Assembly (NCBI RefSeq): GCF_003544915.1
Contig: NZ_CP032097.1
Coordinates: forward strand, 1,116,001 to 1,180,000
Length of the DNA stretch: 64,000 nt
Reading direction: 5' to 3'
Source of the DNA: Arcobacter ellisii
Lineage (GTDB): Bacteria; Campylobacterota; Campylobacteria; Campylobacterales; Arcobacteraceae
Below are positions 47,218 through 63,121 of this stretch, piece by piece. The notes under the pieces are model-generated. The model saw only the letters and a program-made list of their open reading frames with translations, had not been told where the DNA came from and did not search any database. Made by a program: the position numbers and the translations under genes. Position 1 is the first letter of the stretch, and each line of letters opens with the position of its first letter.

Positions 47218-47487
47218 TTATCTAAAAAGTTGAGAATGTGTTCCAATTCTAAGAAGTTGTAATGTATTGTCATTTATCATATAAATTACAAGTAAATCAC
47301 CACTTATATGAAACTCTTTTGTATCTTTCCATTCACCTGTTAAATAATGATCTCTTGCTTCACTTGGTAATTCTTCATTATTTAATAGCATTGAAATATA
47401 AAAAAATAGTTTTGCACTATTTGTTGGATTTAGTTGAGCTTTATTTAAATCTTTTGTAAAGATTTTATGAACGGATAAATCAAGCAC
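47218..47487 (-). CDS. YafQ/RelE-family mRNA interferase toxin
   Basis: The 89-residue toxin has the YafQ pattern: DHYLTGEWKDTKEFHISGDLLVIYMI, shown in part, and the C-terminal RIGTHSQLF with the histidine that acts in catalysis in E. coli YafQ. Members cleave mRNA on the ribosome. It follows the antitoxin gene with an 8-base overlap. Confidence 0.87.
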   Translation of the reverse strand: MLDLSVHKIFTKDLNKAQLNPTNSAKLFFYISMLLNNEELPSEARDHYLTGEWKDTKEFHISGDLLVIYMINDNTLQLLRIGTHSQLFR

Positions 47488-47746
47488 CTAAATCCTTTTT
47501 TAAATCCTCTAATCTAACTTTTGTCATATTTTTATTTGCTCTTGCATCTTTTATAGCTTCAAGTGTTTCATCATTTGGAATTTTAATTTCAAAAGGAATT
47601 CCTCTTTGTAAAACAGATTGAGTTAAAAATATATTAAAAGCTTCACTTAATCCTAAACCATATTGTTTAAATATTTCTTGAGCTTTCTCTTTTGTAGTTG
47701 CATCAAGGTAAACATTTGTTCTAACTTTATTAGTAGTTGCAGTCAT
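47480..47746 (-). CDS. RelB/DinJ-family antitoxin
   Basis: The 88-residue protein carries the ribbon-helix-helix RTNVYLDATTKEKAQEIFKQYGLGLSEAFNIFL (in part: NVYLDATTKEKAQEIF) and a C-terminal acidic/basic tail that would wrap the toxin. The ATG at 47746 is chosen because AAAGGA lies before it; a longer frame begins at 47785 within the promoter region. It binds the palindrome upstream. Confidence 0.88.
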   Translation of the reverse strand: MTATTNKVRTNVYLDATTKEKAQEIFKQYGLGLSEAFNIFLTQSVLQRGIPFEIKIPNDETLEAIKDARANKNMTKVRLEDLKKDLGA

Positions 47747-47771
47747 TTTAAATCCTTTATTTATTAGAGAA

Positions 47772-47801
47772 AGTATAACACACAATGTGTGTTATTGTCA
47801 A
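47772..47801 (-). promoter_or_regulatory. Toxin-antitoxin promoter with embedded palindromic operator
   Basis: On the minus strand TTGACA (47796-47801) and TATACT (47772-47777) are 18 bases apart. The spacer is filled by a palindrome with 10-bp arms (ATAACACACA/TGTGTGTTAT, 47775-47795). This is the expected binding site for the antitoxin or its complex. Confidence 0.8.
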
Positions 47802-51965: not shown

Positions 51966-52310
51966 ATGAAAAAGCAAGAAAAACAGCTTAAAACAAAAGT
52001 TCTAAAAGATAAAAGGATTGAAATAAGAGTAAGTGAAGAGTTTTTTCAAAATCTAAACTCAAAAATTCAAGATAGTGGTCTAAAAAAAGCAGAATACTTT
52101 AGATATATATTATCTCAAGGTAAAGTTGTTGTAAAAAAAGATTACAACAGCCTAGCCACACAAGTTCGAAAATGTGGAGTAAATATTAATGAGATAGCCT
52201 ATGTCTTAAATGTTGCAAATTTAAAAAATGCTTTAAATAATTATGATTATCAGGCTTTATTAGTTGAGTTAAAACTAATTCAAAATCAACTAAATAGATT
52301 AGGAGCTTAA
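51966..52310 (+). CDS. mobC: MobC-like relaxosome accessory protein
   Basis: The 114-residue product has an N-terminal ribbon-helix-helix (RIEIRVSEEFFQNLNSKIQ) and the MobC C-terminal pattern VRKCGVNINEIAYVLN. MobC binds oriT and helps the relaxase to open the strands. The relaxase gene begins 2 bases after its stop. Confidence 0.82.
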   Translation: MKKQEKQLKTKVLKDKRIEIRVSEEFFQNLNSKIQDSGLKKAEYFRYILSQGKVVVKKDYNSLATQVRKCGVNINEIAYVLNVANLKNALNNYDYQALLVELKLIQNQLNRLGA

Positions 52311-52311
52311 T

Positions 52312-54159
52312 TTGATAGTTCGTGTAAGAAGAAATAAAACTGGAGGTTTAGCAAAATATCTTCGTGATGGTGTAAAAAAAGATTCAAATTTCTTAAGAAA
52401 TGAAAAAGATATAGTTATCCCAATTTGGGGTAACTTAGATGAGTTTGAAAAAATTGAAGATTATGTTCTAAATCATAAAAAATTCTCTGAAATAAGTATG
52501 CATATAACCTTTGGTTTTTCAGATAGTGATTGGCAAAAAATAGAATCTTTGCCAACAAAAGATGAACAAAATGCATTAATGCAAGAGTTAGTTCAAGATT
52601 ATATTAAGCACCATTTCTCAGGTTATGACATTTATAACGAAGTAATTGCTTATTCAGAGCTTCATTATCCAAAGCTAAAGTACGATGAATACGGATATAA
52701 ACGTTATCCCCATATACATTTAGCTGTATCGTTCTTAAACCCATTAAGTGATACTAAACTTCGTAATTTATTTGCCATAAATTCATATTATGATGATGTA
52801 ATGGTGCGAAAATCTAACTTCAAATTTGGATTTGAGCAAACTAAAAGAAAAGAGTTTAGAATTAAAAACTTTGATTCACAATTAGGGAGAGACCGTAGAG
52901 AATGGATTGAATTACTTGATGAGTTGAATGACCGTGAGGAACTTATTTATTTTCTAAAAAATCAAATGAACTTCAAAGAGGGAATAGACTACAGAGTTGT
53001 TGATACAAAAAATAATAACTATGTAAAACTAATAAATAAAAGTTTTAAAAATGATAAAAGTGGTAAAAAAATAGTTCAAGATATAAACTTACAGGGTAAG
53101 GGATTTGAACGATTTGTAGATGTTAATTCAACTGAAAAAAATCATAAAAAACTCGAAGATATGACACAACAAGAGCTAGAGGAAATTCTAAATGATGTAT
53201 ATGTAAAAAGAGTGGAGGAAATAACAAAAAGAAGAAGTAAAAAATCAATAGAAGATTTAAAAAAAATTTATGAAGATGATAAACAAATAAAGAAAGATTT
53301 TGAAAAAAAATACTCAAAAAAAGCTGATTATAACTCTATTAAATCTTTAACTTTCCAACAAAAGATTTTTTATAAACATTATGGTGTAAATATTCAAGAT
53401 TCACTAGAAGGATATTATATAAAAGTTGATGAAAACAATGAAAATAATGCAACTTTTATCAATCATTCAAAAGGTATAAAAATTGAAGATAAAGAAGATG
53501 AAATACTCTCTTATTCAAATGAAGATTCTACTCATGAAGAAGTTAAATTAATGCTTGATATAGCTCTTGCAAAAGGTTGGAATCTTTTAGAAATTAAAAT
53601 TGATGGAACACCTCAATTTATCAAAGAAGCAAAAAAACAAATTCTTATAAAAGTTGAAGAGCAAAATCAAACTCAAAAAAAAGAAGAAGAAAAAAAAGAG
53701 ATAAAAAAAGTTGAAATAAAACCAACTAGACCAATATCTCAACTAGATAATTTTATTCTTGAAAATGAATCAAAAATCTTTGAATCTGAAAAAGTATACG
53801 ATTTAAAATTTTTAAAAGAAAACTTATCAGCTCAAATAGTTTTAGATTTTGCAATTAAAAAATATAATATTAATCTTGATGAGTTTGAAGTTGTTGATGA
53901 TAATAAAATCAACAATAAAACTAATAGACAAAAACCCAAATCTATTATTGATTTTTTTACTAAAGAAATAGGTGTCTCAATAAAAGAAACAACAGAGATT
54001 TGTAATAATTTAATGACTAAACAGCCTAAAAAAATAGTTGATAAAATTGAGGATGAAGAAAAATCACAAGAATTGATTTATCCATATATAGATGAAAATT
54101 TAGAACAAAATAAAGAGATTTTAAATGAAAAAAATAAAAGGAAAAAGAGAAAAAATTGA
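52312..54159 (+). CDS. Relaxase (MOB-type, MobA-like)
   Basis: The 615-residue protein has a relaxase core in the first 200 residues: start VRVRRNKTGGLAKYLRDG, then EISMHITFGFSD, and the metal site YPHIHLAVSFLNPLSDTKL with HxH. The C-terminal part is charged and coiled (EEQNQTQKKEEEKKEIKKVE). Start is TTG with AGGAG seven bases upstream. Its class differs from the MobV-like protein of the first island, so the two islands are of separate origin. Confidence 0.8.
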   Translation: MIVRVRRNKTGGLAKYLRDGVKKDSNFLRNEKDIVIPIWGNLDEFEKIEDYVLNHKKFSEISMHITFGFSDSDWQKIESLPTKDEQNALMQELVQDYIKHHFSGYDIYNEVIAYSELHYPKLKYDEYGYKRYPHIHLAVSFLNPLSDTKLRNLFAINSYYDDVMVRKSNFKFGFEQTKRKEFRIKNFDSQLGRDRREWIELLDELNDREELIYFLKNQMNFKEGIDYRVVDTKNNNYVKLINKSFKNDKSGKKIVQDINLQGKGFERFVDVNSTEKNHKKLEDMTQQELEEILNDVYVKRVEEITKRRSKKSIEDLKKIYEDDKQIKKDFEKKYSKKADYNSIKSLTFQQKIFYKHYGVNIQDSLEGYYIKVDENNENNATFINHSKGIKIEDKEDEILSYSNEDSTHEEVKLMLDIALAKGWNLLEIKIDGTPQFIKEAKKQILIKVEEQNQTQKKEEEKKEIKKVEIKPTRPISQLDNFILENESKIFESEKVYDLKFLKENLSAQIVLDFAIKKYNINLDEFEVVDDNKINNKTNRQKPKSIIDFFTKEIGVSIKETTEICNNLMTKQPKKIVDKIEDEEKSQELIYPYIDENLEQNKEILNEKNKRKKRKN

Positions 54160-54316
54160 TGTGATATTAGCAGTATATACAACAAAATTTGAACTAAGTA
54201 TAATTTTTCAAAATGAAAAATTTACAGCTTGGTATATTCAAGGAATCTCTAAAGAGGAATTAATAGAAAAATTCACAAAGGAAGAAATTGAGTATATTTA
54301 TTATCATGCAGTTTGA
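54125..54316 (+). CDS. Small unknown protein after the relaxase
   Basis: A 63-residue frame (VILAVYTTKFELSIIFQNEK, EELIEKFTKEEIEYIYYHAV) that overlaps the relaxase end by 35 bases. The sequence looks coding (helical, balanced), but no ribosome site stands out. Family unknown. Confidence 0.45.
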   Translation: MKKIKGKREKIDVILAVYTTKFELSIIFQNEKFTAWYIQGISKEELIEKFTKEEIEYIYYHAV

Positions 54317-54375
54317 TTCTTAAAAATAAGTGTTCATTTCATTTAAGTGATTTGAACACTAACTCAAAAAAACAC

Positions 54376-54834
54376 TCACTTCTTTCTCTTAGCTTTTATC
54401 TCTTGCCATTCTTTCAATAATTCTTTTTCATACACTTGTAAACTAAATGATTCTTCTTTTTGATTATGATATATTTTTAATTCTTTAATTTCTTCTTCTG
54501 TATATGTTAATGCTTCTTGATTTTCTTGCGAAGATTTTTCTAGTTCATTAAAAATATCAAGATATTTTTTTGAAGTATGGTAAGGTATATTTTTATATTT
54601 TTTTAGATTGTATTGTGTAACTTCAATATCTTTTTCAGTTAAATCAAAAATTGCATCAAATAATTTTGCTCTTGCTATTTCACTTCTATGAAATGTAGCT
54701 CTTTTCATTGAATCAGTTTTTTTTTCTGATACTTTAATCTTTTTTGCTTTTGATAATATATTCTCATTTAGATTGTTTTTTATTAAATTAAATTCATCTT
54801 CTGTTAAATCTAACCTATAAGTAAATTTATCCAT
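54376..54834 (-). CDS. Unknown charged helical protein on reverse strand
   Basis: A 152-residue, lysine/glutamate-rich protein, mainly helical (LTEDEFNLIKNNLNENIL, TYTEEEIKELKIYHNQKEES). It has an RHH-like or mobilisation-protein-like start, but no clear family. It is the only reverse-strand gene in this part of the island, divergent from the cargo genes, so it may regulate them or belong to a separate unit. Confidence 0.6.
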   Translation of the reverse strand: MDKFTYRLDLTEDEFNLIKNNLNENILSKAKKIKVSEKKTDSMKRATFHRSEIARAKLFDAIFDLTEKDIEVTQYNLKKYKNIPYHTSKKYLDIFNELEKSSQENQEALTYTEEEIKELKIYHNQKEESFSLQVYEKELLKEWQEIKAKRKK

Positions 54835-54999
54835 TCATTTTTCCAATAATTAATAATTCTAAATGTTTAAATATGTTTAACGTATTTAAACAATAATTTA
54901 AGAATTTATGTATTAGAATAACGTAATTTGAATTAAAAGATTTAGAATCAAAATAATGCTTCTATAAACTCTTTTATACACTTTAATTTGGAGTTAAAT

Positions 55000-55293
55000 A
55001 TGTTCATAATAAAAGAAAAAGATAATGTAGAAGTTGTTTTAAAAATAAACTCAAAAGAAAATAAAAATTTAGAATCTGTCAAAAACAGAATTAATGATAT
55101 TGTTGATGAGTTTAATATCTCACTTTTTTTAGATATTAAAATAGATAATTTAGTTCCAAAAGATGAAGTAAAAATTGAATACTACTCAAGAGCTTCTGCA
55201 AGTGAAAAAATAGGGGATAACTATTTAAACTTCTTAAATAAGTTTTTAGAAATTGGTTATGAAGATGGTGTAAAAACTGTTCCTATGGAGTAA
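55000..55293 (+). CDS. Unknown small protein, first cargo gene
   Basis: A 97-residue product starting at ATG 55000, with TTGGAG upstream (a longer in-frame TTG at 54988 contains that site and is unlikely). The protein is acidic with alternating strands and helices (DNVEVVLKINSKENKNLESV, LFLDIKIDNLVPKDEVK). No family recognised. It starts the five-gene cargo unit followed by a phosphatase. Confidence 0.6.
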   Translation: MFIIKEKDNVEVVLKINSKENKNLESVKNRINDIVDEFNISLFLDIKIDNLVPKDEVKIEYYSRASASEKIGDNYLNFLNKFLEIGYEDGVKTVPME

Positions 55294-55297
55294 AAAA

Positions 55298-56071
55298 ATG
55301 TTAGAAAATTCAGAAAACAGAAAAAAATTAAAAGAGTTAAAAATCTTTGAAAAAGTACCATTTGAATTTAAAGATGGTTGGACTGATTTAGTTTATGAAT
55401 TAGGAAAAAATATAGAAGAGCTTTGTGAATTAACAAACTATGAACTTCCAATGATTCAACAAATAAAAGAAAAAATGGGAACTCTAAGATTTTATTACAA
55501 TACTTTAAATTCGCAATATCCTCCAATTGTTGAAAAAAGTATTAGAGCTTTAGTAAGCCAAACAGTAAGTAAATCTGCTAATATTTGTGAAACTTGTGGC
55601 AAATATGGGGAATTAAGAGTTGATGGTGGTTATTGGTTTGTTTCTTGTGATGAACACAAAAGAAATTCAATTACAGCAGAAGAGTGGAAAGAATTAGACA
55701 AAAAACAAAGAGAAGATTTAGAAAATGAAAAAATTAATACAAAACCTTACAAAGTATTAAAATTTGAAGAGATTAAATCGCCAATTTTAAAAAGAAAAAT
55801 CATGGAAAAAGTTGCTTGTTTTGAAGCGGTATGTTGGGATTATGAAATAAATGCAGTTGATGTTTTTAATATTTTAAGAACAAAAGATGATGAAGATTTT
55901 CCAATTAGTTATGATGTTTTGAGAAAAAAAGTATTGAAATATGTATCAGTAGATAATTTGAAAAATGTATTTAATCAGGAGCAATTAATAGAGATTTTTT
56001 CTGATATAAGTTTAAGAGCAATCAGAAATCCTGATACAAAAATTTTTATAAAAGAGTTGAAAAAGGCTTGA
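55298..56071 (+). CDS. Zinc-ribbon protein, larger paralogue
   Basis: The N-terminal 130 residues of this 257-residue protein follow a pattern known from phage and accessory proteins: GWTDLVYELGKNIEELCEL, then QIKEKMGTLRFYYN, then a zinc site CETCGKYGELR ... VSCDEH. The C-terminal 120 residues (FEAVCWDYEINAVDVFNILR, VDNLKNVFNQEQLIEIFSDI) have no counterpart in the neighbouring paralogue. GGAG precedes the ATG. Function unknown; nucleic-acid or protein binding through the ribbon is a reasonable guess. Confidence 0.65.
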   Translation: MLENSENRKKLKELKIFEKVPFEFKDGWTDLVYELGKNIEELCELTNYELPMIQQIKEKMGTLRFYYNTLNSQYPPIVEKSIRALVSQTVSKSANICETCGKYGELRVDGGYWFVSCDEHKRNSITAEEWKELDKKQREDLENEKINTKPYKVLKFEEIKSPILKRKIMEKVACFEAVCWDYEINAVDVFNILRTKDDEDFPISYDVLRKKVLKYVSVDNLKNVFNQEQLIEIFSDISLRAIRNPDTKIFIKELKKA

Positions 56072-56073
56072 AA

Positions 56074-56523
56074 ATGGAAGAGAATTTTGAAGAAAGAATT
56101 ATTGAAACAATACAAAAATCTAAATCAAGATTAAGCGAAGAAAATAGAGCTAAATTGAATGAGCTAGAATTATTTAAAAATAAAGTACCTTATCAAATAT
56201 TAAATGGATGGACAGATTTAGTTTATGAATTAGGAAAAAATATAGAAGAGCTTTGCAAATTAGCAAGTTGTGAACTTCCACAAATTGAACATATAAAAAG
56301 TAAATATGCAAGTTTGAGATTTGATTACTACTTTAATTCATCTGTTCCAAGAATTGTTGAAAAATTAATTGATTCACTAATTTATGAAGCAGAAGATAAA
56401 TCAGAAAGAATATGTGAATATTGTGGAGCAGATGGAGAATTAAGGGAAGTAAAAAGCGGTAGTTGGCGGTTAGTGTCTTGTGATAAATGTGCAAAAGAAA
56501 AAGATTTAAAATGCAAGATGTAA
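56074..56523 (+). CDS. Zinc-ribbon protein, shorter paralogue
   Basis: A 149-residue paralogue of the previous gene: GWTDLVYELGKNIEELCKLA, then SLRFDYYF, and a full four-cysteine site CEYCGADGELR ... VSCDKC. A 41-bp stretch is identical in the two genes (55385-55425 and 56215-56255), indicating tandem duplication. ATG 56074 is chosen because AAAAGG is 7 bases upstream. It overlaps the preceding stop region only slightly. Confidence 0.65.
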   Translation: MEENFEERIIETIQKSKSRLSEENRAKLNELELFKNKVPYQILNGWTDLVYELGKNIEELCKLASCELPQIEHIKSKYASLRFDYYFNSSVPRIVEKLIDSLIYEAEDKSERICEYCGADGELREVKSGSWRLVSCDKCAKEKDLKCKM

Positions 56524-57044
56524 GTGAATTTTTAAAAGCTAGTCGCAAATGTAAAAAAAGTAGAGAAAACTGGTATGCAGATGAACTGCTTGAATTAGTT
56601 GCTCATATTCAAGAACACGCAGAAAATAAAGATATTTCAAAAGTTGATTATTGCGAAATGCTTGATGCGGTAATTAAAAGAGCAAATTTAATTAAAGAAA
56701 AAATGCTTGAAGATAAAGAGCTAGTAGTTTTTAATCCAAAAGATTTTACAGATAATTGTTTTTATAAACAACCAAATGCAGATAAACCATCAATTAAAAC
56801 AGTTTCAAATGTAATTAAAAGATATTTAGGAAATATGAATAAACAAGATATTCATACTTTATGTGAAAAGTTTGGAAAAGATAGGGTTTTAAAAGAACTA
56901 GATAACAAATTTATAGAACTTTTTGAGATAGGATATTATGAATTAAAAGGCGGTATGAGAATTCCTTTGACTGGTGATTACAAAGAATATGGGGTTTATA
57001 AAGAAATATTAGAAATTGTTGAGAGTTATGAGGAAATAGAATGA
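56511..57044 (+). CDS. Unknown helical cargo protein
   Basis: From ATG 56511 the product has 177 residues; an in-frame ATG at 56487 lies inside the previous gene. It is helical, with DYCEMLDAVIKRANLIKEKM near residue 45, a pattern partly shared with the next gene, and a globular C-terminal part (LCEKFGKDRVLKELDNKFIE). No catalytic motif or family recognised. It overlaps the preceding gene by 13 bases and the next by 4. Confidence 0.6.
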   Translation: MQDVSEFLKASRKCKKSRENWYADELLELVAHIQEHAENKDISKVDYCEMLDAVIKRANLIKEKMLEDKELVVFNPKDFTDNCFYKQPNADKPSIKTVSNVIKRYLGNMNKQDIHTLCEKFGKDRVLKELDNKFIELFEIGYYELKGGMRIPLTGDYKEYGVYKEILEIVESYEEIE

Positions 57045-57541
57045 GAAATATAGCTGATTTGATTAGATATAATCAAGAAGATAAAGATGATTTTTATAGA
57101 GATGCTCTTTATGGAGAATTAGACTGGTTCATTTCTACAACTCTTGATAGGAAGATTTCAAAAAAAGATTATTTAGAAAGATTGAGAGTTTTAATTAAAG
57201 AAGCAAATAGAATCTATGATGAATTATTGCCAAAATTTGATGAATACATTAAAAGATTTAATTTAAATATTGAAATTCCTCTTGAAGATTTGGAATACAA
57301 AGATTTTAAAATAGTTCCAAAAAATAAAAATGATGTGAACATAATAGAAAGTATTAAATTTGCCAATGAGCTTCTTTTTGAAGCAAAAAAGAAAATATAT
57401 GAAAGCAAATTAAATCCTCTTTATTTATTATTTGAAGCTTTAAATGATGATATTGATGGGATGTTTCTTGTTGCTTCAACAAATTGGTATAAAAGATTTT
57501 TTGTTGAAGAAGATATTAAGAACATATACCACATGGAATAA
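57041..57541 (+). CDS. Unknown helical cargo protein
   Basis: A 166-residue acidic, helical protein. Its segment DYLERLRVLIKEANRIYDEL resembles DYCEMLDAVIKRANLIKEKM of the gene before, pointing to a shared short module. No signal, membrane segment or cysteine pair. It overlaps the previous stop by 4 bases (ATGA) and is 11 bases before the phosphatase gene. Confidence 0.6.
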   Translation: MRNIADLIRYNQEDKDDFYRDALYGELDWFISTTLDRKISKKDYLERLRVLIKEANRIYDELLPKFDEYIKRFNLNIEIPLEDLEYKDFKIVPKNKNDVNIIESIKFANELLFEAKKKIYESKLNPLYLLFEALNDDIDGMFLVASTNWYKRFFVEEDIKNIYHME

Positions 57542-57552
57542 GTATATACAAG

Positions 57553-58239
57553 ATGGAACAAATATATATAATCGGTGATGTTCACGGTTGCTATAAATCA
57601 CTACTTGCATTAATAGAACAACTTCCAAATAAAAAAAACTCTAAAATAGTTTTTGTTGGAGATTTAATTGATAGAGGTTCTAATTCTTGTGAAGTTGTAA
57701 AATTTATTATGGATAATAATTATGATTGTGTAAAAGGTAATCATGAAGAGATGTTTTTAGAATATGCCCCTTCAAAAGAGAATGAAGATTTGTCAGATTC
57801 AAAATATTGGCTTTTAAAATGTGGAGGTGAACAAACTTTGAAATCATACACCTCAAAAGATGAATATTATAAACAATATGATTTTATAAAAACTCTTCCT
57901 TTATGTCTTGAATATAAAGATTATAAAACTACTGATAATAGATATTTAGTTGTTTCTCACTCAGCTGTTGGAAAAGTATGGGATAAAAGAGATAGTAAAG
58001 ATAAATTTGATATTGAAGATTTTGAAAATCAATTGCTCTATAAAAGATATAAACAATTTGATAATAAAGATATTTTTAATGTTTATGGACACACACCAAG
58101 AAGTGAAGCAAAATTAACTTCATTTGATGCAAATGTTGACTTAGGTTGCGTTTATAAAAAAGAAAAAGTAATAAACCCACGACTTTGTGCTTTAGAGTTT
58201 CCGTCTATGAAAATTTATACACAAAAAAATATAGAATAA
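57553..58239 (+). CDS. PP1-like serine/threonine protein phosphatase
   Basis: The 228-residue metallophosphatase has the standard PPP signatures: IIGDVHGCYKSLLAL (GDxHG), VFVGDLIDRGSNS (GDxxDRG), VKGNHEEMF (GNHE), and later histidines in VSHSAVGK and YGHTPR. It matches bacteriophage lambda and PrpA/PphA-type enzymes, which remove phosphate from Ser, Thr, Tyr or His. It is the last gene of the cargo unit, before a large stem-loop. Confidence 0.9.
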   Translation: MEQIYIIGDVHGCYKSLLALIEQLPNKKNSKIVFVGDLIDRGSNSCEVVKFIMDNNYDCVKGNHEEMFLEYAPSKENEDLSDSKYWLLKCGGEQTLKSYTSKDEYYKQYDFIKTLPLCLEYKDYKTTDNRYLVVSHSAVGKVWDKRDSKDKFDIEDFENQLLYKRYKQFDNKDIFNVYGHTPRSEAKLTSFDANVDLGCVYKKEKVINPRLCALEFPSMKIYTQKNIE

Positions 58240-58313
58240 AAACACCCCAAAATAGACAAAAAGCTATTTAAAACTGAATCACTAAAGTTAGTGATTCAAG
58301 AGGTGTTTTATTC
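58234..58313. terminator. Two-level stem-loop after the phosphatase gene
   Basis: The outer arms GAATAAAAACACC (58234-58246) and GGTGTTTTATTC (58302-58313) pair with one bulged A. Inside lies a perfect 9-bp stem GAATCACTA/TAGTGATTC (58276-58297) with loop AAGT. It starts within the phosphatase stop region and is followed by a T-rich stretch, so it most likely ends the unit. Confidence 0.65.
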
Positions 58314-58514
58314 TTGTATTGTAGCATTTTTTTAATTTTTTTTAAATCCTATATTTTTCTTCAATAAAAATATAATAATTGATAATTTTGTATAAAAAGA
58401 TATAATTTTAGATAAAAAAAGATAAATTTTAATAGATTTGTATAATTAAAAATAAATTAGTAGAATTAAGTATAAAAAAGTATAAATCTCATATTTTAAT
58501 AAAAAGTGAAATAG

Positions 58515-58592
58515 GCACATCGACCAATCACCGTACAAAAACCGCCTACGCTAATTTTGAGTGATTGATGTGCTTTAAGGATTATTCCTTAA
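58515..58592. other. Structured non-coding block
   Basis: GCACATC (58515-58521) plus AATCAC (58526-58531) pair with GTGATT (58561-58566) and GATGTGC (58567-58573), leaving GACC as a bulge. A second hairpin TTAAGGA-TTAT-TCCTTAA follows at 58575-58592. The loop of the first is unusually GC-rich for this genome (ACCGCCTACGC). It could be an ssDNA origin, oriT, or small RNA; nothing decides between them. Confidence 0.45.
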
Positions 58593-58742
58593 AAAACCTA
58601 ATATAATAACTAATATAGAGAAAAACGTATTATTAGTGTCAAACGAAGTGTAAAAATTGGCAGATAAATTAATAAAAAAGTTACCTTCTAAAACTTAAAT
58701 CACTTCTGTTTTTCTACCATTTTTACTTTGCACTACTGGTAC

Positions 58743-59044
58743 ATTTTACCTTTGTATTTGACAATTTCAAATGAACTTTTTGAATTTATAATTGAAGTTG
58801 TTAAAAAATGTTATGTAAATACGATTTTGTTTATAGGTGACCAATATCAGTTATTGCCAGTAAATGAGAGTTCTAATAAGGTTTTTAGATTAAAAAATTA
58901 ATATACATTAACACAAATTGTAAGACAAGCAAAAGATAGTAAAATTATTCACCTTGCTAATTAACAAGAGTATGTATAGAAAATCAAGATTATGAAGATT
59001 TGAAAAAACTACTCTATAATAGTACTAGTCTTTTTCCTTTTTAG
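58743..59044 (+). pseudogene. Decayed helicase gene fragment
   Basis: The translation reads SNELFEFIIEVVKKCYVNT then ILFIGDQYQLLPVNESSNKV, with the Walker B/motif II and III region of an SF1 helicase (GDQYQLLPV), a stop at about 58900, then YTLTQIVRQAKDSKIIHLAN, another stop, and after a frameshift RVCIENQDYEDLKKLL. Two in-frame stops and a frameshift show it is dead. It matches the motif-II part of RecD/AAA_30-like helicases, the family of the gene at the window start. The flanking 58593-58742 and 59045-59226 hold no gene I can support. Confidence 0.7.
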
Positions 59045-59226: not shown

Positions 59227-60297
59227 ATGAAAAAAGGTAAATTTTATTTTTCGTTAAAAGATTTTTTAGAAGATAACGAAAATAATACTGAAAATATTTT
59301 TATTTTAGTAGCTGAATATACTAATATTAATTTAGAAAATCTGAAACATTATAATGGTGAAATTTTTGGTGGAATAGTTCCTTTTGTAATTTATAATAAT
59401 GAATATTACAATAAAGGGTTAATTGTTTGTTCTTTAGAAGAAAATTCTGATTTTCTTCTTGTTGAAGATTTAAATTATTTAGATGTTAATAGTACTTTTT
59501 TTGAAAACAGAAAATCATTTTTAGTATTACTTGATGGTTTAAGTCAAAATATTACTAAATTTTTAGAAAATTTATTTGAAGTGGTTTGTGAAAATGCAAA
59601 AGTTATAGGTGGAGGAGCAGGAAAAATGACTTTTGAAAATGATCCTGTAATTTTCACAAAGGATAAAATATATAAAAATGCAGCAATTATAATTGCAACA
59701 TCTATGAATTTACATAGTAAAATAAGTAATGGATGGGAATATTTAGATGGACCATTTTTAACTACAAACTCTGAAAAAAATATATTAAAAACACTAAATT
59801 ATAAGAACGCATTCGATGTTTATAAAAGTATAGTAGAAAAAAATTCTGGAATGATTTTTAGTGATGATAATTTTTTTGATATTGCAAAATCATACCCTTT
59901 GGGTATTGTTAAATTAAATAATCAAACGATAGTTAGAGATCCTATTTACATTGATAAAAATAACAATATAGTTTTAGTTGGTGATATTTTTCAGAATTCA
60001 ACAATAAATATTTTAAAAGGAGATGATAAGAATTTAATTAAATCTTCAGTTAATGCTGTAAAAGAACTTTTAGAAGAGTCAAATTCATGTGCAAATGAAG
60101 ATGTTATTATATTTAATTGTATATCTAGATCAATTTTTTTAGGGAATAATTTTCCTAATGAATTAGATGAAATAAAAAGTCACATGAAAAAAGATGCAAC
60201 ATTATTCGGTGCTCTAACTTTTGGCGAAATATGTAACGATTCAGATAAATATATTAGTTTTTATAATAAGTCATGCGTAGTAGGTGTACTTTGTTAA
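59227..60297 (+). CDS. FIST-domain sensory protein
   Basis: The 356-residue protein has FIST_N (about 20-205: GEIFGGIVPFVIYNNEYYNKG, VIGGGAGKMTFENDPVIFT in part) and FIST_C (about 215-350: YPLGIVKLNNQTIVRDPIYI in part, then DATLFGALTFGEICND). FIST domains are proposed to bind small ligands such as amino acids and feed signal systems. Its end overlaps the following histidine kinase gene, which makes a FIST-kinase-receiver/kinase operon. Confidence 0.87.
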   Translation: MKKGKFYFSLKDFLEDNENNTENIFILVAEYTNINLENLKHYNGEIFGGIVPFVIYNNEYYNKGLIVCSLEENSDFLLVEDLNYLDVNSTFFENRKSFLVLLDGLSQNITKFLENLFEVVCENAKVIGGGAGKMTFENDPVIFTKDKIYKNAAIIIATSMNLHSKISNGWEYLDGPFLTTNSEKNILKTLNYKNAFDVYKSIVEKNSGMIFSDDNFFDIAKSYPLGIVKLNNQTIVRDPIYIDKNNNIVLVGDIFQNSTINILKGDDKNLIKSSVNAVKELLEESNSCANEDVIIFNCISRSIFLGNNFPNELDEIKSHMKKDATLFGALTFGEICNDSDKYISFYNKSCVVGVLC

Positions 60298-61130
60298 TAG
60301 AACAATTATCAATCGCATATCGTTGTCATTGTTCAATAGGAAATAGTGTTAATCTAAAAGAGATGATTCATGAAGTTTTAAAAACTTTTGTAAGTGAATC
60401 ATATGCCTTTTATGGACATTTTTGTTTACTTACAGAAGATATGACATTTGAAAATTTTGATAGTTTTGGAAAAATTATTGATTTTGATTATAAAAAATAT
60501 GATGATTATAAAGATCAATTATCTATAATTAATGATGAAGATTTGATAATTTTAAAAATCAATTTAGATAATGGTATTTTATTTCTAGCTTCAAAAAATG
60601 TTGATGTTGATTGCTCTTTTTTTCTTCTTATGTTTGAAAGTTTAATCTCTAAATTAAATTTAAGTGTTAATGCCTGTTTAAATTATAATAAATTAGAAAA
60701 AGTAAATCATCTATTAAAAAAGCAAAAAAAAGAACTTATAAAAGCTAATAAAATAAAAGATGATTTTCTTGCAAATATGAGCCATGAATTAAAAACACCT
60801 CTAAACTCAATTAGTATAATTTCAAAAGTTATGGCAAATAATAAAGATAATAAATTAGACGATTTATCATTAAAGAATATAAAAATAATTAATAAATGTT
60901 CTGAAGATTTGACTGAAATAATAAATGATATATTAGATATTTCTAAAATAGAAGCAGGAGAATTAACAATTACTAAAAATAATATTTCTTTGAAAAATTT
61001 GATTGAAGAATTATATGATTCATTTGCGCCAATTGCTCATAATAAAAATATTGGATTTATCAATAATTTCCAAATTAATAATGATAATATCTTTACTGAT
61101 GAACATAGAACAAAACAAATCATAAAAAAT
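60291..61130 (+). pseudogene. Histidine kinase, N-terminal part, interrupted by IS element
   Basis: The frame encodes a sensor region (about 1-135), a short coiled coil and the H box DDFLANMSHELKTPLNSISI, then the dimerisation helices (LTEIINDILDISKIEAGEL) and the start of the ATPase domain (TDEHRTKQIIKN). At 61130 an IS3 element begins. The chosen start is TTG 60291 (LLIEQLSIAYRC); ATG 60273 is an alternative overlapping the FIST gene more. The interrupted protein would read a few IS-derived residues and stop at about 61172. Confidence 0.9.
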
Positions 61131-61160
61131 TGGAATGACCCCGAAGTAGTAGACACTTTT

Positions 61161-62027
61161 TTAATCAGTTAACACCTCAGGTTGAGTAACATTTTCATTG
61201 TACCTTTTCTCAAATTCATTTGGACTTATAAAACCTAAATAACTATGTCTTCTTTTTGAATTATAAAACATCTCAATATATTCAAATATTTTATCTCTTG
61301 CTTCTTCTCTTGTTCTAAAAATGGTTTTTCTTACTAACTCTTTTTTTAATGTTTTAAAAAAACTTTCTGCAACTGCATTATCATAACAATTTCCTCTTCT
61401 ACTCATACTTGGTGTGATGTTATGATGTTTTAAAAAAGTTTTATATTCATATGAGCTATATTGACTCCCTTGATCTGAATGTAAAATTACTCCATCTTTT
61501 GGAATTCTATATTTAGTATTTTTTAATGCTTGAATTATTAAATCTGTTGTAATTCTATGACTTGTTGCCCATCCTATAATTTTCCTTGAAAATAAATCTA
61601 AGATAATTGCAAGATATATCCATCCTTCATGAGTTCTTATATAAGTTATATCACTTACCCATGATTCATTTGGAGTTTGTGATATAAAACATTGTTTTAA
61701 ATGATTTGGATGAGCTTTATGAATTGAACCTGCTTTATACTTAGGTCTTCTTTTATAATTTCCTATTCCACAAAGTTTTGCTTCTTTCATTAATCTTGCA
61801 ACTCTTTTTTTATTTACATGAATATTTGAAGCTTTCAAATCCTTATGAATATTTCTATAACCATAAATTCCATTTGATTCTTTATATGCTTTTTTTATTT
61901 CAATAAGAAGTTCTTGATTCTCTTTTTCAAGATTTGAAATAGGTTGTTTTAACCATTTATAATACCCACTTGGATGAACTTTTAACACAGTACACATTCT
62001 TCTTATTGTGTACTGTATTTCATGCAC
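61161..62027 (-). CDS. IS3-family transposase OrfB (DDE integrase part)
   Basis: The 288-residue frame has the HTH_21 region (KKAYKESNGIYGYRNIHKDL) and an rve catalytic core with the DDE triad: SWVSDITYIRT, HSDQGSQYSS and NAVAESFFKTLKKE. It is in the -1 frame relative to orfA and most likely is made as an OrfAB fusion. The listed GTG start lies inside the longer open frame; natural expression as a separate protein is uncertain. Confidence 0.93.
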   Translation of the reverse strand: MHEIQYTIRRMCTVLKVHPSGYYKWLKQPISNLEKENQELLIEIKKAYKESNGIYGYRNIHKDLKASNIHVNKKRVARLMKEAKLCGIGNYKRRPKYKAGSIHKAHPNHLKQCFISQTPNESWVSDITYIRTHEGWIYLAIILDLFSRKIIGWATSHRITTDLIIQALKNTKYRIPKDGVILHSDQGSQYSSYEYKTFLKHHNITPSMSRRGNCYDNAVAESFFKTLKKELVRKTIFRTREEARDKIFEYIEMFYNSKRRHSYLGFISPNEFEKRYNENVTQPEVLTD

Positions 62028-62044
62028 TTTAATAAATGCGTACT

Positions 62045-62329
62045 TTAATTTGGGTTGCTTGCAAAGTACGCTGCGGCCTTTTTTAATATATCTCGTTCTT
62101 CTGTAACTCTTTTTAGCTCTTTTTGTAATCTTTTTATTTCAGCTTGTGTATCTTGAAACTTTTTTGTTTCTACTTCTGCTTCAGGTGATTGGTACTTTCT
62201 TATCCAATTTCTCAAAGAATCATGATGTACACCTAATCTCTCAGCTGTTTCAACAATCCCATATCCATTCTCAACAACTTGTTTTACAGCATCCCTTCTA
62301 AACTCTTCACTATATTCTCTTCTTCCCAT
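62045..62329 (-). CDS. IS3-family transposase OrfA (HTH part)
   Basis: From ATG 62329 the product has 94 residues. It has the HTH_Tnp_1 pattern RREYSEEFRRDAVKQVVENG and SLRNWIRKYQS, followed by a leucine zipper (IKRLQKELKRVTEERDILKK). GAAGGAA precedes the ATG; a TTG at 62344 lies before that site. It binds the IS ends and is extended by frameshifting into OrfB. Confidence 0.93.
   Translation of the reverse strand: MGRREYSEEFRRDAVKQVVENGYGIVETAERLGVHHDSLRNWIRKYQSPEAEVETKKFQDTQAEIKRLQKELKRVTEERDILKKAAAYFASNPN
62078..62084 (-). promoter_or_regulatory. Programmed -1 frameshift heptamer
   Basis: On the minus strand A AAA AAG occurs in the orfA frame at the codons for LKK, just before orfA ends. 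Shifting -1 here continues without stop into the orfB frame. This heptamer is the standard signal in IS3-family elements. Confidence 0.88.
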
Positions 62330-62419
62330 TTTTAATTCCTTCAATTATTTACAATTTTCTCTAAATTGTTATATTAATTAACTGAATTATTTTATGTCTA
62401 TATTTTTGGGGTCATTCCA

Positions 62420-63121
62420 AATCTTCTAAGTAATGCATTAAAATTTACAAAGGAAGGTAAGGTAGAAATATTATCAAAAGAATTTGATGAATATTTTGAA
62501 ATAAGTATAATTGATTCAGGTATAGGAATATCTAAAAATAATTTAAATTATATTTTTGATAGATTTAAACAAATTGATGATTCAATGGGTAAAAAACATC
62601 AAGGTACAGGTCTTGGATTGGCTATTTCTAAACAATTGTCAAAAATGTTAAATGGATATATAACTGTAGAAAGTGAAGAAGGAATAGGTTCTACTTTTAA
62701 ATATATAATTTATAAAAAATCTAATAAAAATATATTAGAAAATTATAATAAAACTGAAAGTGATATAAAAGAATCTGTTTTCTTATTTGATAAAATTTTT
62801 TTAGAAAAACAAATATATTTATTTCACTCAAATAGTATAGAACAATTTAATTTGACAATAAATCTAAAAAAATATGGATTAAAAGTAATACCTATTTTGA
62901 ATGAAGATAAATTAAAAGAGAAAATTGATGATATTAAAAATAACAACAATTTACTTATTTTAGATTCAAAAATAAAAAATTTACAAAATATAATAGATAA
63001 TGAAAAAATAATAAAATCAAATTTAATAATTTTAGAAGAAGGAATATCAATAGAAAATTTAATAGAAAATTTAAAAAACATTCAGTTTTTTAAAGGGGAG
63101 CTTATCAATGGGAAAATTTAA
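62420..63121 (+). pseudogene. Histidine kinase, C-terminal part, separated by IS element
   Basis: The frame continues exactly where the N-terminal part broke: NLLSNALKFTKEGKVEIL (N box), SIIDSGIGISKNNLNYIF (G1), KKHQGTGLGLAISKQLSKML (G2), then a 120-residue receiver-like extension (YLFHSNSIEQFNLTINL, NNLLILDSKIKNLQNI). Without the IS the gene would encode about 512 residues. An internal ATG at 62585 cannot give a functional kinase. Confidence 0.9.

Follow-up and report, generated by a model that had tools for sequence, protein, structure and literature searches.

The cassette considered here occupies positions 54321 to 58343 of a 64,000-nt stretch of Arcobacter ellisii DNA (referred to as the window; G000:C1:1116001-1180000), which lies within the single-contig 2.8-Mb chromosome of this Aliarcobacter-group bacterium. 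Its limits are those of the block that is 92-95% identical in DNA (blastn) to a sister element in the related genome G010 (locus L047). The cassette comprises six genes on the plus strand, designated A to F, and a divergent minus-strand gene, m54, and is positioned between the relaxase gene and an inverted repeat resembling an origin of transfer (oriT), with A to F forming one gene run that reads towards the repeat. It is exchangeable cargo of a family of mobilizable Aliarcobacter elements, with domains shuffled between loci, and its most constant pairing is that of a zinc-ribbon (ZnR) protein with a metallophosphoesterase, a role filled by two phosphoesterase subfamilies. Mobile elements often bear defence-type cargo, and the preliminary description of this locus had proposed such a function.

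The cassette and its mobilizable element

The six forward genes of the preliminary description are present and extend from 55000 to 58239; its starting point of 54376 falls instead in m54 (54376-54834), which is read from the minus strand and encodes a 152-aa protein that weakly resembles helix-turn-helix proteins (MerR_1, E 0.026, below cut-off). This gene is a probable regulator of the element and adjoins a type IV coupling protein (T4CP) gene in the second element of G010 (L064) and a T4CP remnant in L048. The divergent intergenic region (54835-54999) contains a palindrome, TGTTTAAAT ... ATTTAAACA, that is present in G010 too and whose sequence suggests a role as operator.

Gene A (55000-55293) encodes 97 aa of no known family and is followed by gene B (55298-56071; 257 aa), which joins a ZnR domain (residues 4-135) to a helical tail domain termed BC (residues 164-256). 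The product of gene C (56068-56523; 151 aa) is a ZnR paralogue of B. Gene D (56487-57044; 185 aa) combines an E-like N-terminus (residues 16-76) with a C-terminal domain termed DC (residues 77-181), and gene E (57041-57541; 166 aa) has this N-terminus in common with D (E 8e-4). Gene F (57553-58239; 228 aa) encodes a PPP/NinI-like, calcineurin-type phosphatase with intact motifs. The genes had been characterized as mostly overlapping, which holds for three of the five junctions (B/C and D/E, each by 4 nt, and C/D), whereas 4 and 11 nt separate the genes at the remaining two. The C/D overlap amounts to 37 nt counted from the first ATG and to 13 nt from the start matching the G010 copy; the true start of D is probably 56511. 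In profile searches of Pfam, PHROGs, NCBIfam, and PADLOC, no family was matched above its curated cut-off by A to E or m54, and F alone reached this level, in Pfam (Metallophos, 2.2e-18), in keeping with the earlier view that one phosphatase is the only known enzyme of the cluster.

Directly 3' of F there is a hairpin (58241-58310), with a minus-strand terminator-like site scored at 58274-58299; one such site was found, compared with 0.5 expected from shuffles. The inverted repeat (58514-58573, plus strand) is located downstream of the cargo, is conserved in sister elements, and could alternatively be described as single-strand initiation (ssi)-like. The name oriT-like reflects its association with this relaxase in three loci; an Rfam search of it gave no match, and a small further hairpin after it reaches approximately 58593. 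Upstream of the cassette, the backbone carries a mobC/NikA-like relaxosome gene (51966-52310, plus strand; Pfam NikA-like, 7.4e-10) and the relaxase gene (52312-54159, plus strand; 615 aa), whose plasmid matches are annotated as LPD7-domain proteins or relaxases and whose closest relatives in the family stand at 76% (G010) and 70% (G009).

Exchange and shuffling of the cargo

The cassette and the backbone have diverged from G010 to very different extents. The mobC-relaxase region is 80% identical in DNA, compared with the 92-95% of the cassette, whose seven proteins are 83-98% identical, and synonymous divergence (dS) is 0.025-0.204 for m54 and A to F as opposed to 0.504 for mobC and 0.834 for the relaxase. 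This contrast in dS and identity indicates that the cassette has moved between elements independently. The ratio of nonsynonymous to synonymous divergence (dN/dS) is 0.14-0.57 for A to F and 0.32 for m54 and is thus below 1 for every gene, which indicates that the cassette proteins are under selection and that the open reading frames (ORFs) are not chance occurrences. The highest ratio is that of F (0.57), with a dS within the range of its neighbours, so that the protein sequence of F is changing faster. In G010, approximately 5 kb of other genes separates the relaxase from m54, and only a small gene (window 54125-54316) is common to the two elements in this interval.

A family-wide set of 104 genomes was searched genome by genome with B, D, E, and F. 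Five copies of the oriT-like repeat were found in four of these genomes: one in this element, one in G010, two in G009, and one in G020. The G020 copy has three mismatches and is accompanied by 463 bases of contig on its cargo side, too little to judge cargo, and the remaining four copies align with invariant blocks. Just upstream of those four repeats, the cargo includes a metallophosphoesterase in every case (shortened to 191 aa in G009 C7) and a ZnR gene in three. The preliminary description had regarded the genes as mobile-element cargo placed after a relaxase, and this is upheld by their location between the relaxase and the repeat, in a slot that holds other genes in sister elements. The same location, found also in G010 and G009 C7, together with the adjacency of m54 to the T4CP gene of L064 and the T4CP remnant of L048, would be expected if the genes served the transfer or maintenance of the element, for instance as relaxosome accessories adjacent to oriT. 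This explanation is most improbable in view of the varying content of the slot among sister elements, the differing divergence of cassette and backbone, and the presence of ZnR genes in phages.

Shuffled versions of the cassette occur in four related genomes, some of them in the same slot; those of G005, G006, and G009 C49 are in other places, either following a T4CP gene or what remains of one, or next to other genes. When the domains are mapped, ZnR is found alone and in the arrangements ZnR-BC, ZnR-G, H-ZnR-H, and HepT-like-ZnR (G and H being recurrent unnamed domains), and the tail domains are found as BC-DC, H-BC-DC, E-like-DC, and nucleotidyltransferase-DC (Pfam Polbeta, 3e-13). The HepT-like piece is fused to a C-type ZnR (76.6% identity) in G006, and G010 has one extra gene, between C and D, whose product is HepT-like but degenerate and stays below the Pfam cut-off (0.0067). 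The place of F is taken in some loci by a phosphoesterase from another subfamily, approximately 273 aa long. A 50-aa ORF in the second element of G010 (L064:9607-9759), in which the beginning of a BC domain runs into the final part of a G domain, is a direct trace of domain recombination. The preliminary description had advised a search for the same gene set in other genomes; B, D, E, and F are all present in order only in this genome and in G010.

At the ends of the element, no clear flanking direct repeat was seen; similarity to two relatives resumes at approximately 59117. By eye, two minus-strand genes at 47218-47487 and 47480-47785, at the left edge of the element, have the look of a RelE/ParE-type toxin and a RelB/DinJ-type antitoxin; the second gene of this pair has two relatives in G001 (L066). 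A short ORF at 58728-58901, in which a helicase-like GDQYQLLPV motif was recognized by eye, is likely to be what is left of a larger gene at the element's right end. Beyond it, a histidine kinase gene (60273-61172 and 62585-63121) appears to be split by an IS3-type insertion (61161-62344), with the HisKA part before and the HATPase part after the insertion, and adjoins a FIST-domain gene (59227-60297).

Zinc-ribbon proteins and their phosphoesterase partners

The zinc-ribbon paralogues named in the preliminary description correspond to the N-terminal half of B (residues 5-121) and to C, which are 58% identical (E 3e-33) and whose genes contain a DNA repeat of 147 nt at 78% identity. Their cysteine motifs are C97xxC/C117xxH in B and C116xxC/C138xxC in C, and in an alignment of 60 ZnR sequences K57, K59, and R64 are kept in at least 90% of the rows. 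The family received no Pfam name in these scans, C reaching DUF2921 at 7e-4, below cut-off, and its profile gave no more than weak matches to a TnpB-like protein and to ribosomal zinc ribbons (best 0.0027). An AlphaFold2 model of B (mean predicted local distance difference test score, pLDDT, 90.4) consists of an alpha-beta-beta-alpha core and a zinc-ribbon hairpin. Searched against the PDB, this model gave no match below E 0.001, and in a second structural comparison no Z score exceeded 4.6, ribosomal S3 being level with designed and unrelated proteins; no fold relation is therefore claimed for the modelled structure. In BFVD, five phage proteins matched it at E below 0.001. Viral contigs contain ZnR genes in 227 confirmed stretches, and a translated search with B matched 14 of 72,556 plasmid records and 2 of 50,697 phage records, the ZnR half being the part aligned among the matches listed. 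Solitary ZnR genes near Zot-type filamentous phage genes were observed in three Arcobacteraceae genomes (L055, L056, L057). With profiles of BC and DC, relatives were not detected in viral contigs, nor was any solved structure a convincing match, and the two domains have no detectable relationship to each other. A model of D (pLDDT 51) was too poor for a structural comparison. No title or abstract among the results listed from an open-licence library describes the cassette or the ZnR family, nor is the family described in the available portions of two papers (PMC9503650; PMC7824862).

F can be assigned with greater precision. It matches PHROG 246, the NinI-like phosphatases, at 6.6e-35 and bears GDVHG, GDLIDRG, GNHE, and GHT, and thus all four PPP phosphatase motifs (GDxHG, GDxxDRG, GNHE, and GHT). 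Its best solved structure is 1g5b (5.2e-13), the phage lambda phosphatase, and entries named PP1 score 5.8e-5 at best, over the first approximately 65 residues. By these sequence criteria, F is a PPP phosphatase of the NinI/lambda type; the earlier label of a PP1-like phosphatase was correct as to the metallophosphoesterase with PPP motifs and too specific as to PP1, and the eukaryotic enzyme was dismissed as a candidate since PP1-named structures match far more weakly than 1g5b. F shares its family, its catalytic motifs, and a similar length with the lambda enzyme and differs in its setting, an operon that also encodes ZnR proteins and belongs to a mobilizable element. We know of no established role for lambda-type phosphatases carried by mobile DNA.

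The ZnR half of B is represented by 11 loci in the family, of which seven have a phosphoesterase in the cargo; by sequence motif, the four exceptions are three Zot-type filamentous-phage loci and one remnant with stops. Phosphoesterases were defined by this motif both in the family loci and outside Arcobacter, and the pattern can miss members, as it did the L064 phosphoesterase that Pfam finds. The second phosphoesterase type is also carried by two relaxase loci without ZnR (G009 C7 and L064). Outside Arcobacter, 102 distinct ZnR loci were assembled from 50 genome matches and the best 80 of the 227 viral matches. Here the link recurs more weakly: 10 of the 12 motif-defined phosphoesterases are located within three genes of ZnR, occupying 10 of 574 near slots and 2 of 926 far slots (Fisher p 0.0018, permutation p 0.002). 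Pfam Metallophos was found in 5 of 148 downstream neighbours of ZnR (one of them from Arcobacter) and in 4 of 148 upstream neighbours; among control genes five to six positions away it did not appear in the 25 families listed (of 78 in all), which corresponds to at most 1 of 148. As a separate observation, the order ZnR, 594-aa unknown protein, and PPP-type phosphatase occurs on two contigs of Eoetvoesiella caeni (L101:6001-9128 and L104:910-4039).

Possible functions of the cassette

Relatives of the remaining domains provide most of what can be said of function. In 15 of 19 loci that are not cassette modules, DC lies directly upstream of an AbiEii relative (of the others, two have no such relative beside them and two are fragments). 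AbiEii was recognized by Pfam in both DC neighbours tested and, in six family genomes, at the position next to DC, and a Hydrogenimonas plasmid has DC with the same AbiEii-relative neighbour. In the modules, by contrast, no AbiEii match was found beside DC, and none of A to F matches PF08843; the sole AbiEii match in this genome (G000:C1:2054728) is approximately 880 kb away. Compared with the AbiE type IV toxin-antitoxin system, as far as it is covered by the available part of PMC3985639, D has in common that its DC is related to proteins encoded directly upstream of AbiEii relatives, whereas the cassette is without AbiEii, and D, whose N-terminus is different, matches none of the AbiEi models in Pfam. 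The C-terminal domain of AbiEi is sufficient as antitoxin according to the same source (PMC3985639), and AbiEii was found in 46 of the 104 family genomes, among them all four that carry a DC module, so that a solitary antitoxin could pay in hosts where AbiEii is frequent.

Other relatives point towards RNA damage. In L051, the BC domain is fused to cREC (Pfam 6.9e-27), which has been proposed, in the portions available of two papers, to act on cyclic phosphates during RNA repair and in the metabolism of ADP-ribose (PMC9503650; PMC7824862). In L123, a HAD_SAK gene stands beside a phosphoesterase near ZnR, and RNA_ligase occurs in 2 of 148 downstream neighbours of ZnR. F itself shows similarity to the phosphatase portion of bacterial Pnkp (TIGR04075, at 5.7e-15 and far short of the cut-off), and its phosphoesterase part matches a PHROG RNA-ligase profile (7.5e-16). 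An RNA-repair operon, in which F would heal RNA ends and the ZnR proteins would hold the broken RNA without any antitoxin role, is nevertheless improbable, as no ligase, kinase, or cREC match was obtained among A to F and F scores better to NinI-type protein phosphatases. The phage neighbourhoods that combine cREC, HAD, and calcineurin-type proteins in RNA repair and NAD-ADP-ribose metabolism (so far as described in the same portions of PMC9503650 and PMC7824862) share with the cassette the calcineurin-type phosphoesterase and, through the fused BC relative, cREC; A to F, unlike them, have no match to RNA ligase, sirtuin, 2H, or cREC, and no HAD match was found in the genes other than F. Gene A had been considered as a 2H phosphoesterase (HVSL, E 0.17) and was dropped for want of a supporting motif. 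A HEPN/MNT pair was not seen either, as Pfam gave no HepT or MNT match in A to F. The HepT motif is RX4-6H, and it is not visible in the sequence of the HepT-like gene of G010.

We tentatively favour the view that the cassette is a mix-and-match counter-defence, or establishment, cassette directed against toxin-type and RNA-damage immunity of the host, a scheme in which we infer every biochemical step. After entry, m54 would switch the cassette on. D would supply an AbiEi-like antitoxin domain without a toxin and so neutralize the AbiEii-type nucleotidyltransferase toxins common in these hosts, and the ZnR proteins may bind damaged RNA or a toxin complex via their conserved basic QxKxKxGxLRxY hairpin. 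A phosphate or nucleotide group would then be taken off the bound target by F, a task that would fall to the 273-aa phosphoesterase in other loci. Domain shuffling would then track the variety of toxins met in recipients. A broader possibility, held more loosely, is that of an unnamed modular conflict system in which ZnR adaptors of phages and mobile elements, an exchangeable metallophosphoesterase, and AbiE-antitoxin or cREC tails would undo toxin or RNA damage to incoming elements. The cassette is comparable to the anti-defence islands of plasmid leading regions (PMC11541004, of which a part was available) in that its variable cargo, close to an oriT-like site, includes uncharacterized genes and an antitoxin-like domain that stands alone; it differs in that its cargo lies on the relaxase side and reads towards the oriT-like site and in that no known anti-defence gene was matched.

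The main functional rival is anti-phage defence, in which ZnR would sense infection or a nucleotide signal, the phosphoesterase would be the effector, and the antitoxin-like domain a brake. The setting of two modules, each one gene away from restriction genes, is in accord with it, that of G009 C49 being after a type I restriction locus and that of G006 near type I restriction genes, and the earlier suggestion of host-interaction or defence cargo gains plausibility from the toxin-antitoxin and RNA-repair domains of the relatives. That suggestion fared less well against known defence systems: a PADLOC 2.0 scan of eight proteins gave no match better than E 0.012. There is, moreover, no recognizable toxin, nuclease, or membrane effector among A to F, and the wide occurrence of ZnR genes in viral contigs (the 227 stretches) is a better fit to counter-defence or phage biology, which together leave defence a rather doubtful explanation. 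The G009 restriction locus also contains a patatin phospholipase and a SMODS/DncV-like cyclase (CBASS-like; L049:2655-4776), approximately 10 kb from the ZnR module.

Nearly as likely as the counter-defence reading is that A to F are loose cargo, independent small genes collected behind one promoter in a recombination-prone slot and serving no single function. The tight coupling of the genes had been taken as a sign of one function, with separate scattering named as the finding that would speak against it, and scattering is indeed found in part: ZnR stands alone in the three Zot loci, F-like phosphatases occur away from ZnR, DC is usually beside AbiEii, BC also occurs alone, and among the other family genomes B to F are in order in G010 only. 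The inference of a single function is weakened by this mix-and-match content and not refuted, as the core pair of ZnR and metallophosphoesterase keeps its association. A purely accidental collection accords poorly with that association, which involves two subfamilies in seven of the 11 family loci and recurs outside the genus, and with the reappearance of identical domains across several fusions.

Several further observations weigh against a counter-defence role. Three ZnR loci are phage-like and without a phosphoesterase by motif, and relatives of F are present in 31 of the 104 genomes, mostly away from ZnR (those at 60-78% identity sit apart from it in other Arcobacteraceae genomes). Several of the loci behind the 10 of 12 neighbouring phosphoesterases are mutually related, so that the effective number is smaller, and the Pfam count of 9 of 296 neighbours (one being the Arcobacter locus L095) compared with no more than 1 of 148 in the control does not reach significance by itself. 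The best structural neighbours of the ZnR half of B (ribosomal S3, Z 4.6) do not demonstrate RNA binding. The antitoxin role of DC rests on position: D has no Pfam match to AbiEi, its best being DUF6922 at E 0.014, below cut-off, and its N-terminus is E-like as opposed to the helix-turn-helix-like start seen by eye in AbiEii-paired relatives. AbiEii is common in the genus anyway, so that its co-presence with DC modules is hardly discriminating, and the cREC fusion, the HepT-like gene, and the nucleotidyltransferase-DC fusion belong to relatives and not to the window. Finally, the cargo is on the relaxase side and reads towards the oriT-like repeat; the available part of PMC11541004 places leading-region anti-defence genes on the opposite side of oriT, encoded on the transferred strand.

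If the counter-defence reading is true, it would join three things, the lambda-type phosphatases carried on mobile DNA, a large ZnR family of phages, and solitary antitoxin domains, and would offer a testable cassette with a ready toxin partner in the AbiEii pairs of sister genomes. The narrower result, taken alone, is a cargo slot in Aliarcobacter elements with cassette-like domain shuffling.

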